Shown piece after piece: positions 3,945-16,301 of a stretch of 35,081 nucleotides of DNA. Both the position numbers and the translations under genes were made by a program. Origin of the DNA: Natrinema pallidum DSM 3751. Its GTDB lineage: Archaea; Halobacteriota; Halobacteria; Halobacteriales; Natrialbaceae. The notes under the pieces were generated by a model, which was given only the letters and a program-made list of their open reading frames with translations, did not search any database and was not told where the DNA came from. Position 1 is the first letter of the stretch. Every line of letters starts with the position of its first letter. The stretch is from NCBI RefSeq assembly GCF_000337615.1, contig NZ_AOII01000010.1, positions 1 to 35,081 of the forward strand, in the 5' to 3' direction.

Positions 3945-4031
3945 GGTACGAGCACCGACGCCAGTAGGAGACATCAACCTAGTACGGGCGGCTGCAAGCA
4001 GCACGCGGCCGCCGGGTTCACGGCGGCCGAC

Positions 4032-5159
4032 TCACTCGCCGTGCCACGACTCATCCCGTCGGTCGGCCTCGGTAGCGCCACCGTCACCGTGCGGGCCCGT
4101 CGCGTCGCAACCGGACGTGACATCGGCGCTGTCGCCGTTCGCGGCCGCCGATTCGGTCCCGGAATCGGTCGTCGGCTTGGGGTCGTCGGGACCCGGCGCG
4201 ACCGCCGGCACGTCGACCGCGTTCACCGCGTGGCGGACGATGGCGCTCCCGTCGACTCCCTCGACGGTCGCCTCGGTCGTGAGCACGATCCGGTGGGCCA
4301 TCGTCGGTCCTGCGAGCCGCTTGATGTCGTCCGGCGTCACGTACGATCGCCCCTCGATCAGCGCCGCGGCCCGGGCCGCCTCGAACACGCGCTGGACGCC
4401 GCGGGGCGAGACGCCGATCTCGGCGCGCTGGTCCGCCCGCGTCTTCCGGGCGATCTCGACGATATAGCGGCGGACCTTCTCGTCGACGGTGACCTCCTCG
4501 GTCAGAGTCTGCAGGAGCCGAACCGCGTCCGGACTGGCGACCGACTCCACGCTCGGCGAGAGCGAGCGACGGTTCGCCCGGCGCTCGAGCAGCCCCATTT
4601 CGCCCTCGAAGTCGGGGTAGCCGAGCGAGGTTTTGACGCTGAAGCGGTCGCGCTGGGCCTCCGGCAGTCGGAAGGTCCCCTCCTGTTCGATCGGGTTCTG
4701 GGTCGCGACGACCAGAAACGGTTCCGGCAGGTCGTAGGTCGTCCCGTCGACGCTGACCTGTCGTTCCTCCATGGCCTCGAGCAGCGCGGCCTGGGTCTTC
4801 GGCGGCGCGCGGTTGATCTCGTCGGCGAGGACGACGTTCGTGAACACCGGTCCCGGTGCGAACTCGAACTCGCCGGCCTGTTCGTCGTAGATCGTCGACC
4901 CGGTCACGTCCGAGGGCAACAGATCCGGCGTGAACTGGAGTCGCGTGAACTCCAGTCCCATCGCCTCGGCGATCACACGCGCGGTGACCGTCTTGCCCGT
5001 CCCCGGCACGTCCTCGAGCAGGACGTGTCCGCGGGCCAGCGTCGCCGACAACATGGCGTGGAGCACCTCGCGATCCACGACCGCGGCCTCTTCGATGCGG
5101 TCGACGACGCGCCGGACGGTGCGTGCAGCGTCGTCGGCTGTCGCGTTCGTCGCGTCCAT
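4032..5159 (-). CDS. MoxR family AAA+ ATPase
   Basis: A 375-residue AAA+ ATPase of the MoxR group. Walker A (PGTGKT) lies at ~52-57, Walker B (LADEIN) at ~111-116, then the helical insert PPKTQAALLEAMEERQV, sensor 1 VVATQNP, and the C-terminal lid domain. MoxR ATPases are thought to act as chaperones or activators for neighbouring vWA/DUF58 proteins; here the DUF58 gene lies two genes upstream in the same cluster. About 55 residues at the C-terminus form an acidic, Gly/Asp/Thr-rich tail beyond the usual family end. The ATG at 5159 is chosen because the upstream in-frame extension is Arg/Ser-rich antisense-type sequence. An 82-nt gap separates it from the previous gene, so it is probably in the same transcript but not translationally coupled. 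Confidence 0.93.
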   Translation of the reverse strand: MDATNATADDAARTVRRVVDRIEEAAVVDREVLHAMLSATLARGHVLLEDVPGTGKTVTARVIAEAMGLEFTRLQFTPDLLPSDVTGSTIYDEQAGEFEFAPGPVFTNVVLADEINRAPPKTQAALLEAMEERQVSVDGTTYDLPEPFLVVATQNPIEQEGTFRLPEAQRDRFSVKTSLGYPDFEGEMGLLERRANRRSLSPSVESVASPDAVRLLQTLTEEVTVDEKVRRYIVEIARKTRADQRAEIGVSPRGVQRVFEAARAAALIEGRSYVTPDDIKRLAGPTMAHRIVLTTEATVEGVDGSAIVRHAVNAVDVPAVAPGPDDPKPTTDSGTESAAANGDSADVTSGCDATGPHGDGGATEADRRDESWHGE

Positions 5160-5241
5160 ACACGACAATCCAGCTAGATACCCAAGAACCCTCCCCATCG
5201 AGACCGTCGGAGCCGTCCGCGATCGGGTCCCGCCGACGTCC

Positions 5242-6690
5242 CTAGCCGCGCACCGGGAGCAACAGGAGTAACGCACCGAGCGCGACGACGACCGCACCGC
5301 CGGCCGCGCCCCCGCCCGCGAAGACGCCGGCCCGGAGCACCTCGAGACCGGTGACAATGACGACGGCACCGATCGCGACGCCGACGGCGACGGCCCCGTG
5401 GAACAACTCGAGTCGGCGAGTGTCGGGCAGGTGACCGAGCTCGGCCGTCAGTCCGAGCCCGAACGTCGCGCTGTCCCAGACGAGGATCGCGCCGGCGATA
5501 CAGGCGAAGACGACGAGCGGATTGGCACGACCCACGCCGATCGCGGCCACGACGAGTCCCGTCGCAGCGACCGCCGGCCCGGTGGCCCGTGCGGGGAGCA
5601 GGCCGAGTCCGACGCCGACGGCACCGCCCCCGACGACGATCAGGAACGCGAGCGGTCCCAGCACCAGCGCGACGACGAGGCCCAGCCCGATCAGGACGGG
5701 GCCGATGGCGAGCCCGGTCCCGGAGACGATGAGTACCAGCCCGAGCAGCAACGGCAGGGAGAGACAGACGCCGACGACGGCCGCGGCGGTCCGCCGCGTC
5801 GTCTGGGCGGAGTCGTCGCGGGTCAGCCGTCGGAGCAGGACGGCGACCGCGCCGGCGAGGAGACTCACCGCGCCGACGGCGACGATCGGCCAGACGAGCA
5901 GCGGCGAGGACAGCGACGAGAGTAGCCACGCGAGCAACGGGACGCTCGTCACCACGGTATCGACGCCCGCCAGTCCGAGAGCACCGATCCCGATGAGGGC
6001 ACCGATCGAGCCGACGGCCGTGTACAGCAGGCGTTGTCGGACGGCGGTGAGTCGCCGCTCGATTGCCGGACGGCGGTCCCGCGGCGTCACCTGCCGAATC
6101 GGGAGCCACCGTATCGACAGCCGAACGACACCGGCCGTCCCCGCGACGAGTAGGAGGACGCCGGTCACGGACGCGACCGGCGTCGAAAACCCGGTTATAC
6201 TGGTCAGAACCGCCCAGCAGAAGTAGACGACGGCCGTCATGACCCCCGTCAACACGAGCGAACACAGCATCGAGGCGTAGCTGATCACGCTGCCCGCCGC
6301 GGCGGTGCCCAGCCCGTCGCCGCCGATATCTGCCCAGGCGGCCCCGATCCCGGCGAGCGCGAGCGCACAGCCGCTCGCAGCGATCCCGGCTCGAGCGACG
6401 AACGGGGCCGCGAGCACGATCAGCGCGAACGCCGTCCCGAACGTCACCATGAGCGCGTGGGCCACGACCAGGCTGACGAACCCGTCGCGCTCGAGCAGGC
6501 CCACGCCCGCGACGGTCAGCCCGACGACCGGGCCGAGCGTCGGCAACAGCGACGGCTCGCCGATCTCGAAACCGACGACGCCGACGATCGCGACGACGAT
6601 CAGGCTGGCGAGCCAGAGGCTCGCTGCCCGTGCTCGTCCCTCGTCGCCGATCGCGGACGGCCGGTCGAGGCGCGGTCCGGCGAGGGACAT
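5242..6690 (-). CDS. Polytopic membrane protein of the MoxR/DUF58 cluster (DUF7519-like)
   Basis: A 482-residue, very hydrophobic protein with about a dozen predicted membrane helices. A short polar N-terminus (~22 residues) is followed by helix pairs; two basic loops lie near residues 200-225 (around PRDRRPAIERR) and near 290-300. No enzyme motif is visible. The location matches the polytopic protein found next to DUF58 and MoxR genes in many haloarchaea, which I recall as DUF7519. Its ATG at 6688-6690 directly abuts the TAG of the DUF58 gene at 6691-6693, so translation is probably coupled. It may be the membrane partner or substrate of the MoxR/DUF58 pair; this is inferred from context. 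Confidence 0.8.
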   Translation of the reverse strand: MSLAGPRLDRPSAIGDEGRARAASLWLASLIVVAIVGVVGFEIGEPSLLPTLGPVVGLTVAGVGLLERDGFVSLVVAHALMVTFGTAFALIVLAAPFVARAGIAASGCALALAGIGAAWADIGGDGLGTAAAGSVISYASMLCSLVLTGVMTAVVYFCWAVLTSITGFSTPVASVTGVLLLVAGTAGVVRLSIRWLPIRQVTPRDRRPAIERRLTAVRQRLLYTAVGSIGALIGIGALGLAGVDTVVTSVPLLAWLLSSLSSPLLVWPIVAVGAVSLLAGAVAVLLRRLTRDDSAQTTRRTAAAVVGVCLSLPLLLGLVLIVSGTGLAIGPVLIGLGLVVALVLGPLAFLIVVGGGAVGVGLGLLPARATGPAVAATGLVVAAIGVGRANPLVVFACIAGAILVWDSATFGLGLTAELGHLPDTRRLELFHGAVAVGVAIGAVVIVTGLEVLRAGVFAGGGAAGGAVVVALGALLLLLPVRG

Positions 6691-14180: not shown

Positions 14181-15479
14181 TCAGGCGAAGTCCTCGAACG
14201 TCGGCCGCTCCCGGTCGCCCGGGAACTCGTCGACCGGGAGCTGCGTCTGGTCGCCCGATGCCATGTCCTTGATCGTTACCTCGTCGTTCGCGAGGTCCTG
14301 CTCGCCGACGATGACGACGGTCTCGGCGTTGATCGAGTCGGCGTAATCGAGCTGTGCACCGAACGATCGACCGGCGATGTCGGTCTCGACGACGTGGCCC
14401 CGGTCGCGGAGTTCGTGAACGATCCGGGCCGCTTCCGAGCGCGTGTCCCCGATCTGGAGGACGTAGTAATCGGTCGTCACCGACTCCTCGGGCCAGACGC
14501 CCGCCCGCTGGCAGAGCAGCGACAGCGTTGCGTGGCCCGGTGCGACGCCGACCGCGGGCGTCGGCTGCCCGCCGAAGCGCTCGATCAGGTCGTCGTAGCG
14601 GCCGCCCCCGAAGATCGCCCGCGAGACCTCGCCCGCCGAGTCGAAACACTCGAAGACGACGCCGGTGTAGTAGTCCAGCCCGCGGGCCGTCTCGAGCGAG
14701 ATCGTACAGTACTCTCGAGCACCGAAGTCCTCGGCCGCGTCCAGGACGTTCCGTAGGTTCTCGACCGCTGCCGTCACGCGCTCGGTGTTCGCGAACGCCT
14801 CGACTTCGTCGAGGTCCCCGCCCGCGATGAGATCGCCGAACTCGGCGGCCTGCTCGGCGGTCAATCCGGCGTCGATCAGCAGATCGTGGTACTCCGCTCG
14901 CGAGAGTTTGTCCGATTTGTCGACCGCGCGGATCGCCGCTTCCGTGTCGACCTCAGTCTCGTAGCTCTCGAGGACGCCCCCGAGGATGTCCCGGTGGGAG
15001 ATCCGGAACTCGAAGTGGTCGCCGGTGAGTCCGAGGCCGGTCAGGGCATCGGCGGCCCACGCGAGGATCTCGGCGTCGGCCTCGGGCTCCGCGGAGCCGA
15101 AGATGTCGACGTTGGTCTGATAGAACTCCCGGTACCGACCCTGTTGGACCTGCTCGTAGCGCCAGAACGGGCGCGTCGAGACCCACTTGATCGGCTTCGA
15201 AAGCGCCTGTTGTTTCGCGACGACCATCCGGGCGACGGTCGGGGTGAGTTCCGGCGTCAACGTGACGTGGCGGCCGCTCTGGTCCTCGAACGCGTAGAGT
15301 TCGTCGACGATGTCGTCGCCACTCTTGTCGGTCCACATCTCGGCGCGCTCCAGCGCCGGGGTCCCGATCTCGCGGAACCCGTACTCGCGGGCCGTGTCCT
15401 CCAACACGTCGATCGCCGCCCGTCTGGCGGACATCTCGCCGGGGTAGAAGTCACGAAAGCCCTTGATTCGGTCGTACAT
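14181..15479 (-). CDS. hisS: Histidyl-tRNA synthetase
   Basis: A 432-residue class II aminoacyl-tRNA synthetase that charges tRNA-His. It starts YDRIKGFRDFYPGEM. Motif 2 is RPFWRYEQVQQGRYREFYQ (~103-121), the HisRS-specific ARGLDYYTG is at ~265-273, and GGGRYDDLIERFGG is at ~291-304. The anticodon-binding domain occupies the last ~100 residues. Motif 3 reads PAVGVAPGHATLSLL (~308-322); the Arg that normally follows the glycine-rich turn (G-x-E-R-L in bacterial HisRS) is Thr here. The rest of the protein is full length and intact. The ATG at 15479 is preceded by a weak CGAAAGGATAGAAG element ~30 nt upstream. Confidence 0.95.
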   Translation of the reverse strand: MYDRIKGFRDFYPGEMSARRAAIDVLEDTAREYGFREIGTPALERAEMWTDKSGDDIVDELYAFEDQSGRHVTLTPELTPTVARMVVAKQQALSKPIKWVSTRPFWRYEQVQQGRYREFYQTNVDIFGSAEPEADAEILAWAADALTGLGLTGDHFEFRISHRDILGGVLESYETEVDTEAAIRAVDKSDKLSRAEYHDLLIDAGLTAEQAAEFGDLIAGGDLDEVEAFANTERVTAAVENLRNVLDAAEDFGAREYCTISLETARGLDYYTGVVFECFDSAGEVSRAIFGGGRYDDLIERFGGQPTPAVGVAPGHATLSLLCQRAGVWPEESVTTDYYVLQIGDTRSEAARIVHELRDRGHVVETDIAGRSFGAQLDYADSINAETVVIVGEQDLANDEVTIKDMASGDQTQLPVDEFPGDRERPTFEDFA

Positions 15480-15710: not shown

Positions 15711-16301
15711 CTAGCGGATGTTCGTCACGTACGTCTGCTCGTGATCGGGGAAGTAGTCCGCGATCGCCGCCGGTCCGTCCTCGTCGGCGATGAGCGCGCG
15801 GAGTTCGGCCTCGTAATCCGCCCTCTCGATCTCCTCGCTCGGGCCGACGGTCACGTCCAGTCGCGCCTCGACCAGCCGATCGACGGCCGACCGACCGAAC
15901 CCCGACAGCGGCGCGATATAGTCGACATCGTGGCGATCCTCGAGACTCTGTGCCTGTGCCCGCGAAATCGTCGGGACGCGGTCGTCGCGGCGGGTCCCGT
16001 CCGCAACGGCATCGAACTCCCGGGCCGCGAGTTGCTCGAGGGCGTGCTGGTGGACCAACTGAATGCCGTTGCGCGGATAGCCGTCCTCGCGAATCCGGTC
16101 GACGGCGTCGCGGGCGACTTCCGGGTCGCACTCGAGTCGTTCGAACGCGAAGCCGGCATCCGCGGCCGTCGCGCGGGCGTGTTTCCAGTCGTCGCTGATG
16201 CCGAAGTGGGCCGTCAGCAGCGTCACGTCGTAAAACTCCTCGAGCAAGAGTGCGGCCAGCGTCGAGTCCTTGCCGCCGCTGTAGAGCAGTCCGAGCTCCA
16301 T
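15711..16301 (-). CDS. PP-loop (N-type) ATPase, DUF7411-like
   Basis: A 196-residue adenine-nucleotide alpha-hydrolase-like protein. The PP-loop YSGGKDST is at residues 7-14 and binds the pyrophosphate of ATP in enzymes that adenylate tRNA bases or other substrates. Other visible segments are LLTAHFGISDDWKHA and a conserved ADGTRRDDRVP followed by PLSGFGRSAVDRLV. This haloarchaeal group is, I recall, DUF7411; substrate unknown. The ATG (16299-16301) overlaps the TAA stop of the PDCD5 gene by one base, and S19e is upstream, so it sits in a translation-linked operon. A tRNA- or translation-factor-modifying role is inferred from that context. Confidence 0.85.
   Translation of the reverse strand: MELGLLYSGGKDSTLAALLLEEFYDVTLLTAHFGISDDWKHARATAADAGFAFERLECDPEVARDAVDRIREDGYPRNGIQLVHQHALEQLAAREFDAVADGTRRDDRVPTISRAQAQSLEDRHDVDYIAPLSGFGRSAVDRLVEARLDVTVGPSEEIERADYEAELRALIADEDGPAAIADYFPDHEQTYVTNIR

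Follow-up and report, generated by a model that had tools for sequence, protein, structure and literature searches.

In the portions of the published work covered here, the two arginines of the class II aminoacyl-tRNA synthetase 'Arginine Tweezers', one in motif 2 and one in motif 3, are described as 'invariant in sequence' and were found in 482 of 524 structures (Kaiser 2018, PMC5919687), and that of motif 3 is again called 'absolutely conserved' (PMC8821087). The motif 3 arginine serves as a signature of class II and also in ideas on the origin of the class. Mapping of the tweezers failed for PDB 4yrc, the histidyl-tRNA synthetase (HisRS) of Trypanosoma cruzi, where alignment ambiguity was named, and the same source states, citing Merritt 2010, that some synthetases may bind their ligand differently (PMC5919687). 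Passages of two reviews describe the ATP site or binding interactions of trypanosomal or T. cruzi HisRS as divergent from those of the human enzyme (PMC4695845, PMC9978631).

In the HisRS of T. cruzi and T. brucei (PDB 3hrk, 3hri, 4yrc and others) motif 3 reads GFGFGDCVIVELL and has no arginine, while an arginine is found in the segment FRALCGGGRYD. The listed sequence of 4yrc is the same as that of the Arg-less 3hrk and, judged from it, the arginine that could not be mapped is truly absent. As the entry title of 3hrk is that of a T. cruzi histidyl-adenylate complex, an Arg-less HisRS holds the reaction intermediate. The HisA arginine of the T. cruzi enzyme is numbered Arg314 (PMC4335047), which matches the alignment used here. 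The HisRS of Thermoplasma acidophilum (PDB 1wu7) is similar, with GFGMGDAVISLL in motif 3 and RAILGGGRYD upstream of it. The adenine pocket reportedly differs in the 2010 work of Merritt, and the trypanosome part of the trait may have been described there. No statement of the trait in archaea was found in the portions of the literature reached by our searches. The initial suggestion that it may have escaped comment is partly right, given the failed mapping of 4yrc and the divergent ATP site noted in reviews.

The window, a stretch of 35,081 nucleotides from Natrinema pallidum, includes a full-length hisS gene (positions 14181–15479, minus strand) for a histidine--tRNA ligase of 432 amino acids. 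The protein matched the HisRS core (PF13393) and the C-terminal HGTP anticodon-binding domain (PF03129, 51 bits against a cut-off of 21), and scored 370.8 bits with TIGR00442, the NCBIfam equivalog for hisS, for which the curated cut-off is 286.75. It has a HisRS-like fold in common with HisZ, the regulatory subunit of ATP phosphoribosyltransferase, but differs from HisZ in retaining the anticodon-binding domain and in scoring below the curated cut-off of TIGR00443 (208.7 against 271.65 bits). A search of the N. pallidum genome, which is rated 99% complete, using the window protein recovered a single HisRS and no second hisS or hisZ, the next match having an E value of 0.14, in agreement with the initial annotation, which had seen only one hisS. 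Among the 145 genomes of the class that were searched, all encode a HisRS scoring over the cut-off and none encodes a second one. Upstream of hisS, the next gene (15711–16301, minus strand) is for a DUF7411 protein, which matches Asn_synthase weakly, just below the cut-off.

The E. coli, human and methanogen HisRS belong to the same family and have the same motif 2, HisA arginine and anticodon domain as the window protein, but they keep the motif 3 arginine (GLERL, GVERI or GFDRV). In the window protein, motif 3 (PAVGVAPGHATLSLL, residues 308–322, 14514–14558, minus strand) retains neither the E nor the R of G-x-E-R. When aligned with AVGFAMGLERLVLL of E. coli, Glu310 corresponds to Ala317 and Arg311 to Thr318 (codon at 14526–14528, minus strand), and the report of a threonine in place of the motif 3 arginine was thus correct. 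The arginine of motif 2 (Arg107, E. coli Arg113, codon at 15159–15161, minus strand) and the HisRS-specific catalytic arginine in the HisA motif R-G-L-x-Y-Y (Arg266, E. coli Arg259, codon at 14682–14684, minus strand) are both intact, also as first reported, and are conserved in 29 of 29 Arg-less and 75 of 75 Arg-bearing sequence clusters. Thr318 means that the tweezers signature fails for this protein but, because the solved HisRS of the same branch also lack the motif 3 arginine, its membership of the HisRS family stands. In the same genome, the motif 3 arginine is retained in ThrRS (GSYERFF), AspRS (GLGGERL), SerRS (SGLAIPRV) and ProRS (SWGLSWRA), where motif 3 was placed by eye.

An AlphaFold model of the window HisRS was of moderate confidence (pLDDT 82, pTM 0.72) and predicts strands at residues 290–294 and 309–314 and a helix at 316–326. 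The top solved match to the model was T. cruzi HisRS (Z 36.2, rmsd 4.8, 408 residues aligned), followed by the Thermoplasma enzyme (Z 35.8, rmsd 4.6, 411 aligned), with E. coli HisRS at Z 30.3. In the structural alignments, identity to the window protein was 30–33% for the trypanosomal enzymes, which are eukaryotic and have valine where the window protein has threonine, and 36% for that of T. acidophilum, which is in the same branch as the window protein.

To determine how far the trait extends, 333 HisRS sequences (322 distinct) were collected and 332 were scored, 206 as Arg-less and 126 as Arg-bearing; 80 loci gathered with an Arg-less query do not constitute a sample. A HisRS from the Thermoplasmatota set (L279), which has one in-frame TAG, was unscored, and two further loci (L002 and L259) gave no profile match. 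The motif 3 arginine was absent from all 70 haloarchaeal genomes covered out of the 145 in the class, which together with the window represent each of 58 genera by hand count. Among 56 places from other members of the phylum, three were Arg-less, all in a single family (f18) that includes Methanocella, as the locus from Methanocella sp. PtaU1.Bin125 had the same place and score as a genome of that family. In the Thermoplasmatota set, where 83 of 88 places were covered, 18 of 82 scored sequences were Arg-less, and in the nanohaloarchaeal set 26 of 30 were, though some genes in the latter were counted more than once. Bacteria were sampled via five plasmid records and PDB chains, and eukaryotes via PDB chains. 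Of eight plasmid records, haloarchaeal ones included, four were Arg-less, three haloarchaeal and one from Streptomyces, and three PDB chains, which were chosen for being Arg-less, lack the arginine; human, Nostoc and Elizabethkingia HisRS keep it. The initial view that this may be a feature of a clade was right in that the trait is clade-wide, but the limit to haloarchaea was too narrow, as the T. cruzi, T. brucei and Thermoplasma enzymes are included. A scan of viral contigs found no relative that could indicate a viral source.

A DNA pattern combining the upstream arginine codon with a non-arginine codon in motif 3, which also admits some serine codons at the arginine place, matched 369 of 391 haloarchaeal genomes; an earlier pattern covered GGGRYD alone and was uninformative on the arginine. 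Two of the 22 misses were inspected (L083 and L096) and both features were present in each, with threonine or alanine where the pattern required a codon with T in the middle. The possibility that a shifted alignment supplies the arginine, which the initial annotation had raised against its own reading, was rejected because, of the 206 Arg-less sequences, 204 contain no arginine among the seven residues that follow the motif glycine. In the two exceptions an arginine is displaced from the usual position by two residues towards the C-terminus. Six haloarchaeal HisRS (L006, L019, L020, L024, L030 and L084) have a motif 3 lengthened by additional residues past the glycine, as GVMNSTL or GVLNSTL.

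The initial annotation did not include a second change, which lies on the strand before motif 3 in the segment RAIFGGGRYD (residues 287–296, 14592–14621, minus strand). An arginine three residues ahead of GGGRYD, Arg287 in the window protein (codon at 14619–14621, minus strand; E. coli Gly280, T. cruzi Arg334 by alignment), was found in all 206 Arg-less sequences and in three of the 126 that bear the motif 3 arginine (195 of 195 against three of 126 when distinct proteins are counted). The E. coli, human and methanogen enzymes mostly have G, S, N or K at this position. As lysine is found there in 58 of the 126 Arg-bearing HisRS and arginine in three, a basic residue at 287 is compatible with a motif 3 arginine and does not on its own indicate replacement. 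Arg287 is invariant in the Arg-less group, while the old motif 3 position varies (Thr in 104, Val in 45, Pro in 38 and Asn in eight). The breadth of the trait and its strict pairing with Arg287 are newly seen here.

A phylogenetic analysis of 104 cluster representatives placed all 29 Arg-less rows on one side of a single branch (SH-aLRT 98). Support for this branch remained at 93 (103 rows) when the columns for the trait, Pro80 and Trp99 were removed, in a second tree that omitted one row (L260.2). Both trees were built rapidly and have no bootstrap values, gave composition warnings, contain a few long rows and are unrooted; as class II enzymes generally carry the arginine (in the part of PMC5919687 covered), a loss within HisRS is the simplest account of the change. 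The missing arginine is a property of the whole branch, and the enzyme itself is an ordinary one. Five sister rows retain the motif 3 arginine, and at 287 they show G, L or a gap; a sixth (L260.2), which grouped with the sisters in the first tree only, has S there. All six lack Arg287 and Pro80, and five of the six lack Trp99. Pro80 (codon at 15240–15242, minus strand) is replaced by alanine or valine in nearly all other HisRS, and Trp99 (codon at 15183–15185, minus strand) by arginine in the five sister rows L234, L238, L266, L267 and L315. Loss of the motif 3 arginine, gain of Arg287 and the changes at Pro80 and Trp99 thus fall on the same branch. Arg163 was also considered as a substitute and was rejected, as all six sister rows (L260.2 among them) carry it and keep the motif 3 arginine, so that it is not tied to the loss.

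In the class II fold, the strand ahead of GGGRYD is antiparallel to that of motif 3. If the model is read with the strands in this arrangement, Arg287 would lie next to the first residues of the motif 3 helix, at the place that Arg311 occupies in E. coli. The explanation we favour, by a little over an even chance, is that the window protein is the normal, active HisRS of the cell and that Arg287 most likely replaces the motif 3 arginine. Arg287, on the strand beside motif 3, would reach into the same site, contact ATP and take over, with Arg107 of motif 2 and the HisRS-specific Arg266 working as usual. Going by the sequence comparisons, relocation of an arginine is the likely mechanism, though a swap on one branch amounts to one event with no independent repeats and Pro80 and Trp99 change there too. 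A fuller history, to which we give slightly less than even weight, is that one of the two ATP-holding arginines relocated just once, from motif 3 to the strand beside it and with function kept, and that the resulting HisRS was then passed on within archaea and across domains, reaching trypanosomes and a Streptomyces plasmid.

The strongest competing possibility, which we consider appreciably less probable though far from negligible, is that the entire ATP site was rebuilt and no single residue stands in for the lost arginine. ATP would then be held by Arg107, arginines of the motif 2 loop, magnesium and aromatic residues (Trp106 and Trp99, for instance), and the conservation of Arg287 would have a different cause, such as a structural salt bridge or a tRNA contact. 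The columns that best separate the two groups across the 104 clusters are Pro80, Arg287, Asp125, Arg163, Trp106 and Arg294, and Trp99 also separates them; that several positions do so, two of them (Pro80 and Trp99) changing on the same branch, is consistent with a rebuilt site, as is the divergence of the T. cruzi ATP site from the human one noted in the passages of the two reviews. However, among the basic positions conserved in Arg-less HisRS, Arg287 alone is nearly absent elsewhere (two of 75 Arg-bearing clusters) and is not found in the sister rows, whereas Arg163 and Lys191 are largely common to them, which argues for Arg287 as the substitute.

That the window protein is HisRS-like with weak or no charging activity, His-tRNA being made by another enzyme, is very improbable. 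It is missing a residue called invariant in the passages of PMC5919687 and PMC8821087, but no other HisRS was found in its own genome and no second one over the cut-off in any of the 145 genomes of the class, Arg107, Arg266 and the anticodon-binding domain are all present, and by its entry title the T. cruzi enzyme of the same branch was crystallised with histidyl-adenylate. Adaptation to high salt, the least probable explanation of all, would fit the presence of the trait in every haloarchaeal genome covered and of the combined DNA pattern in most, but is refuted as its origin by the non-halophiles in the branch, which also holds Thermoplasma, DHVE2 archaea, Methanocella, trypanosomes and the Streptomyces plasmid copy.

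If replacement by Arg287 is correct, the 'invariant' motif 3 arginine can be substituted from another position, and the ATP site of trypanosomes represents an architecture of the whole clade rather than an oddity of the parasite. A large branch of HisRS without the motif 3 arginine is a natural test of whether this residue can be replaced, and a two-residue prediction, Arg287 versus Thr318, is available for the bench. The same change may explain the failed tweezer mapping in T. cruzi HisRS and an ATP site unlike the human one, and is relevant to inhibitor work.

Divergent hisS genes with 43–48% identity to that in the window are found on plasmids of Halomicrococcus and Haladaptatus (L261, L262 and L263, at about 3983–5300 in each), and in the tree L261 groups with copies from the nanohaloarchaeal set and with L098 of the haloarchaeal class. 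In one genome of the class (G122), the sole HisRS over the cut-off (L097) resembles this divergent plasmid hisS. A genome in the nanohaloarchaeal set (G396, loci L240 and L260) has three HisRS-like genes, two of them adjacent, of which one is Arg-less and one is long-branched and has the arginine. The Arg-less hisS on a Streptomyces goshikiensis plasmid (L264, 9971–11272) is near genes for an adenylate-forming enzyme, an aminotransferase and a methyltransferase, and may belong to a biosynthetic cluster as a self-resistance copy. Three sequences from the Thermoplasmatota set (L294, L300 and L310) group with T. cruzi HisRS in the tree (SH-aLRT 99), suggesting that the gene was transferred between archaea and kinetoplastids.
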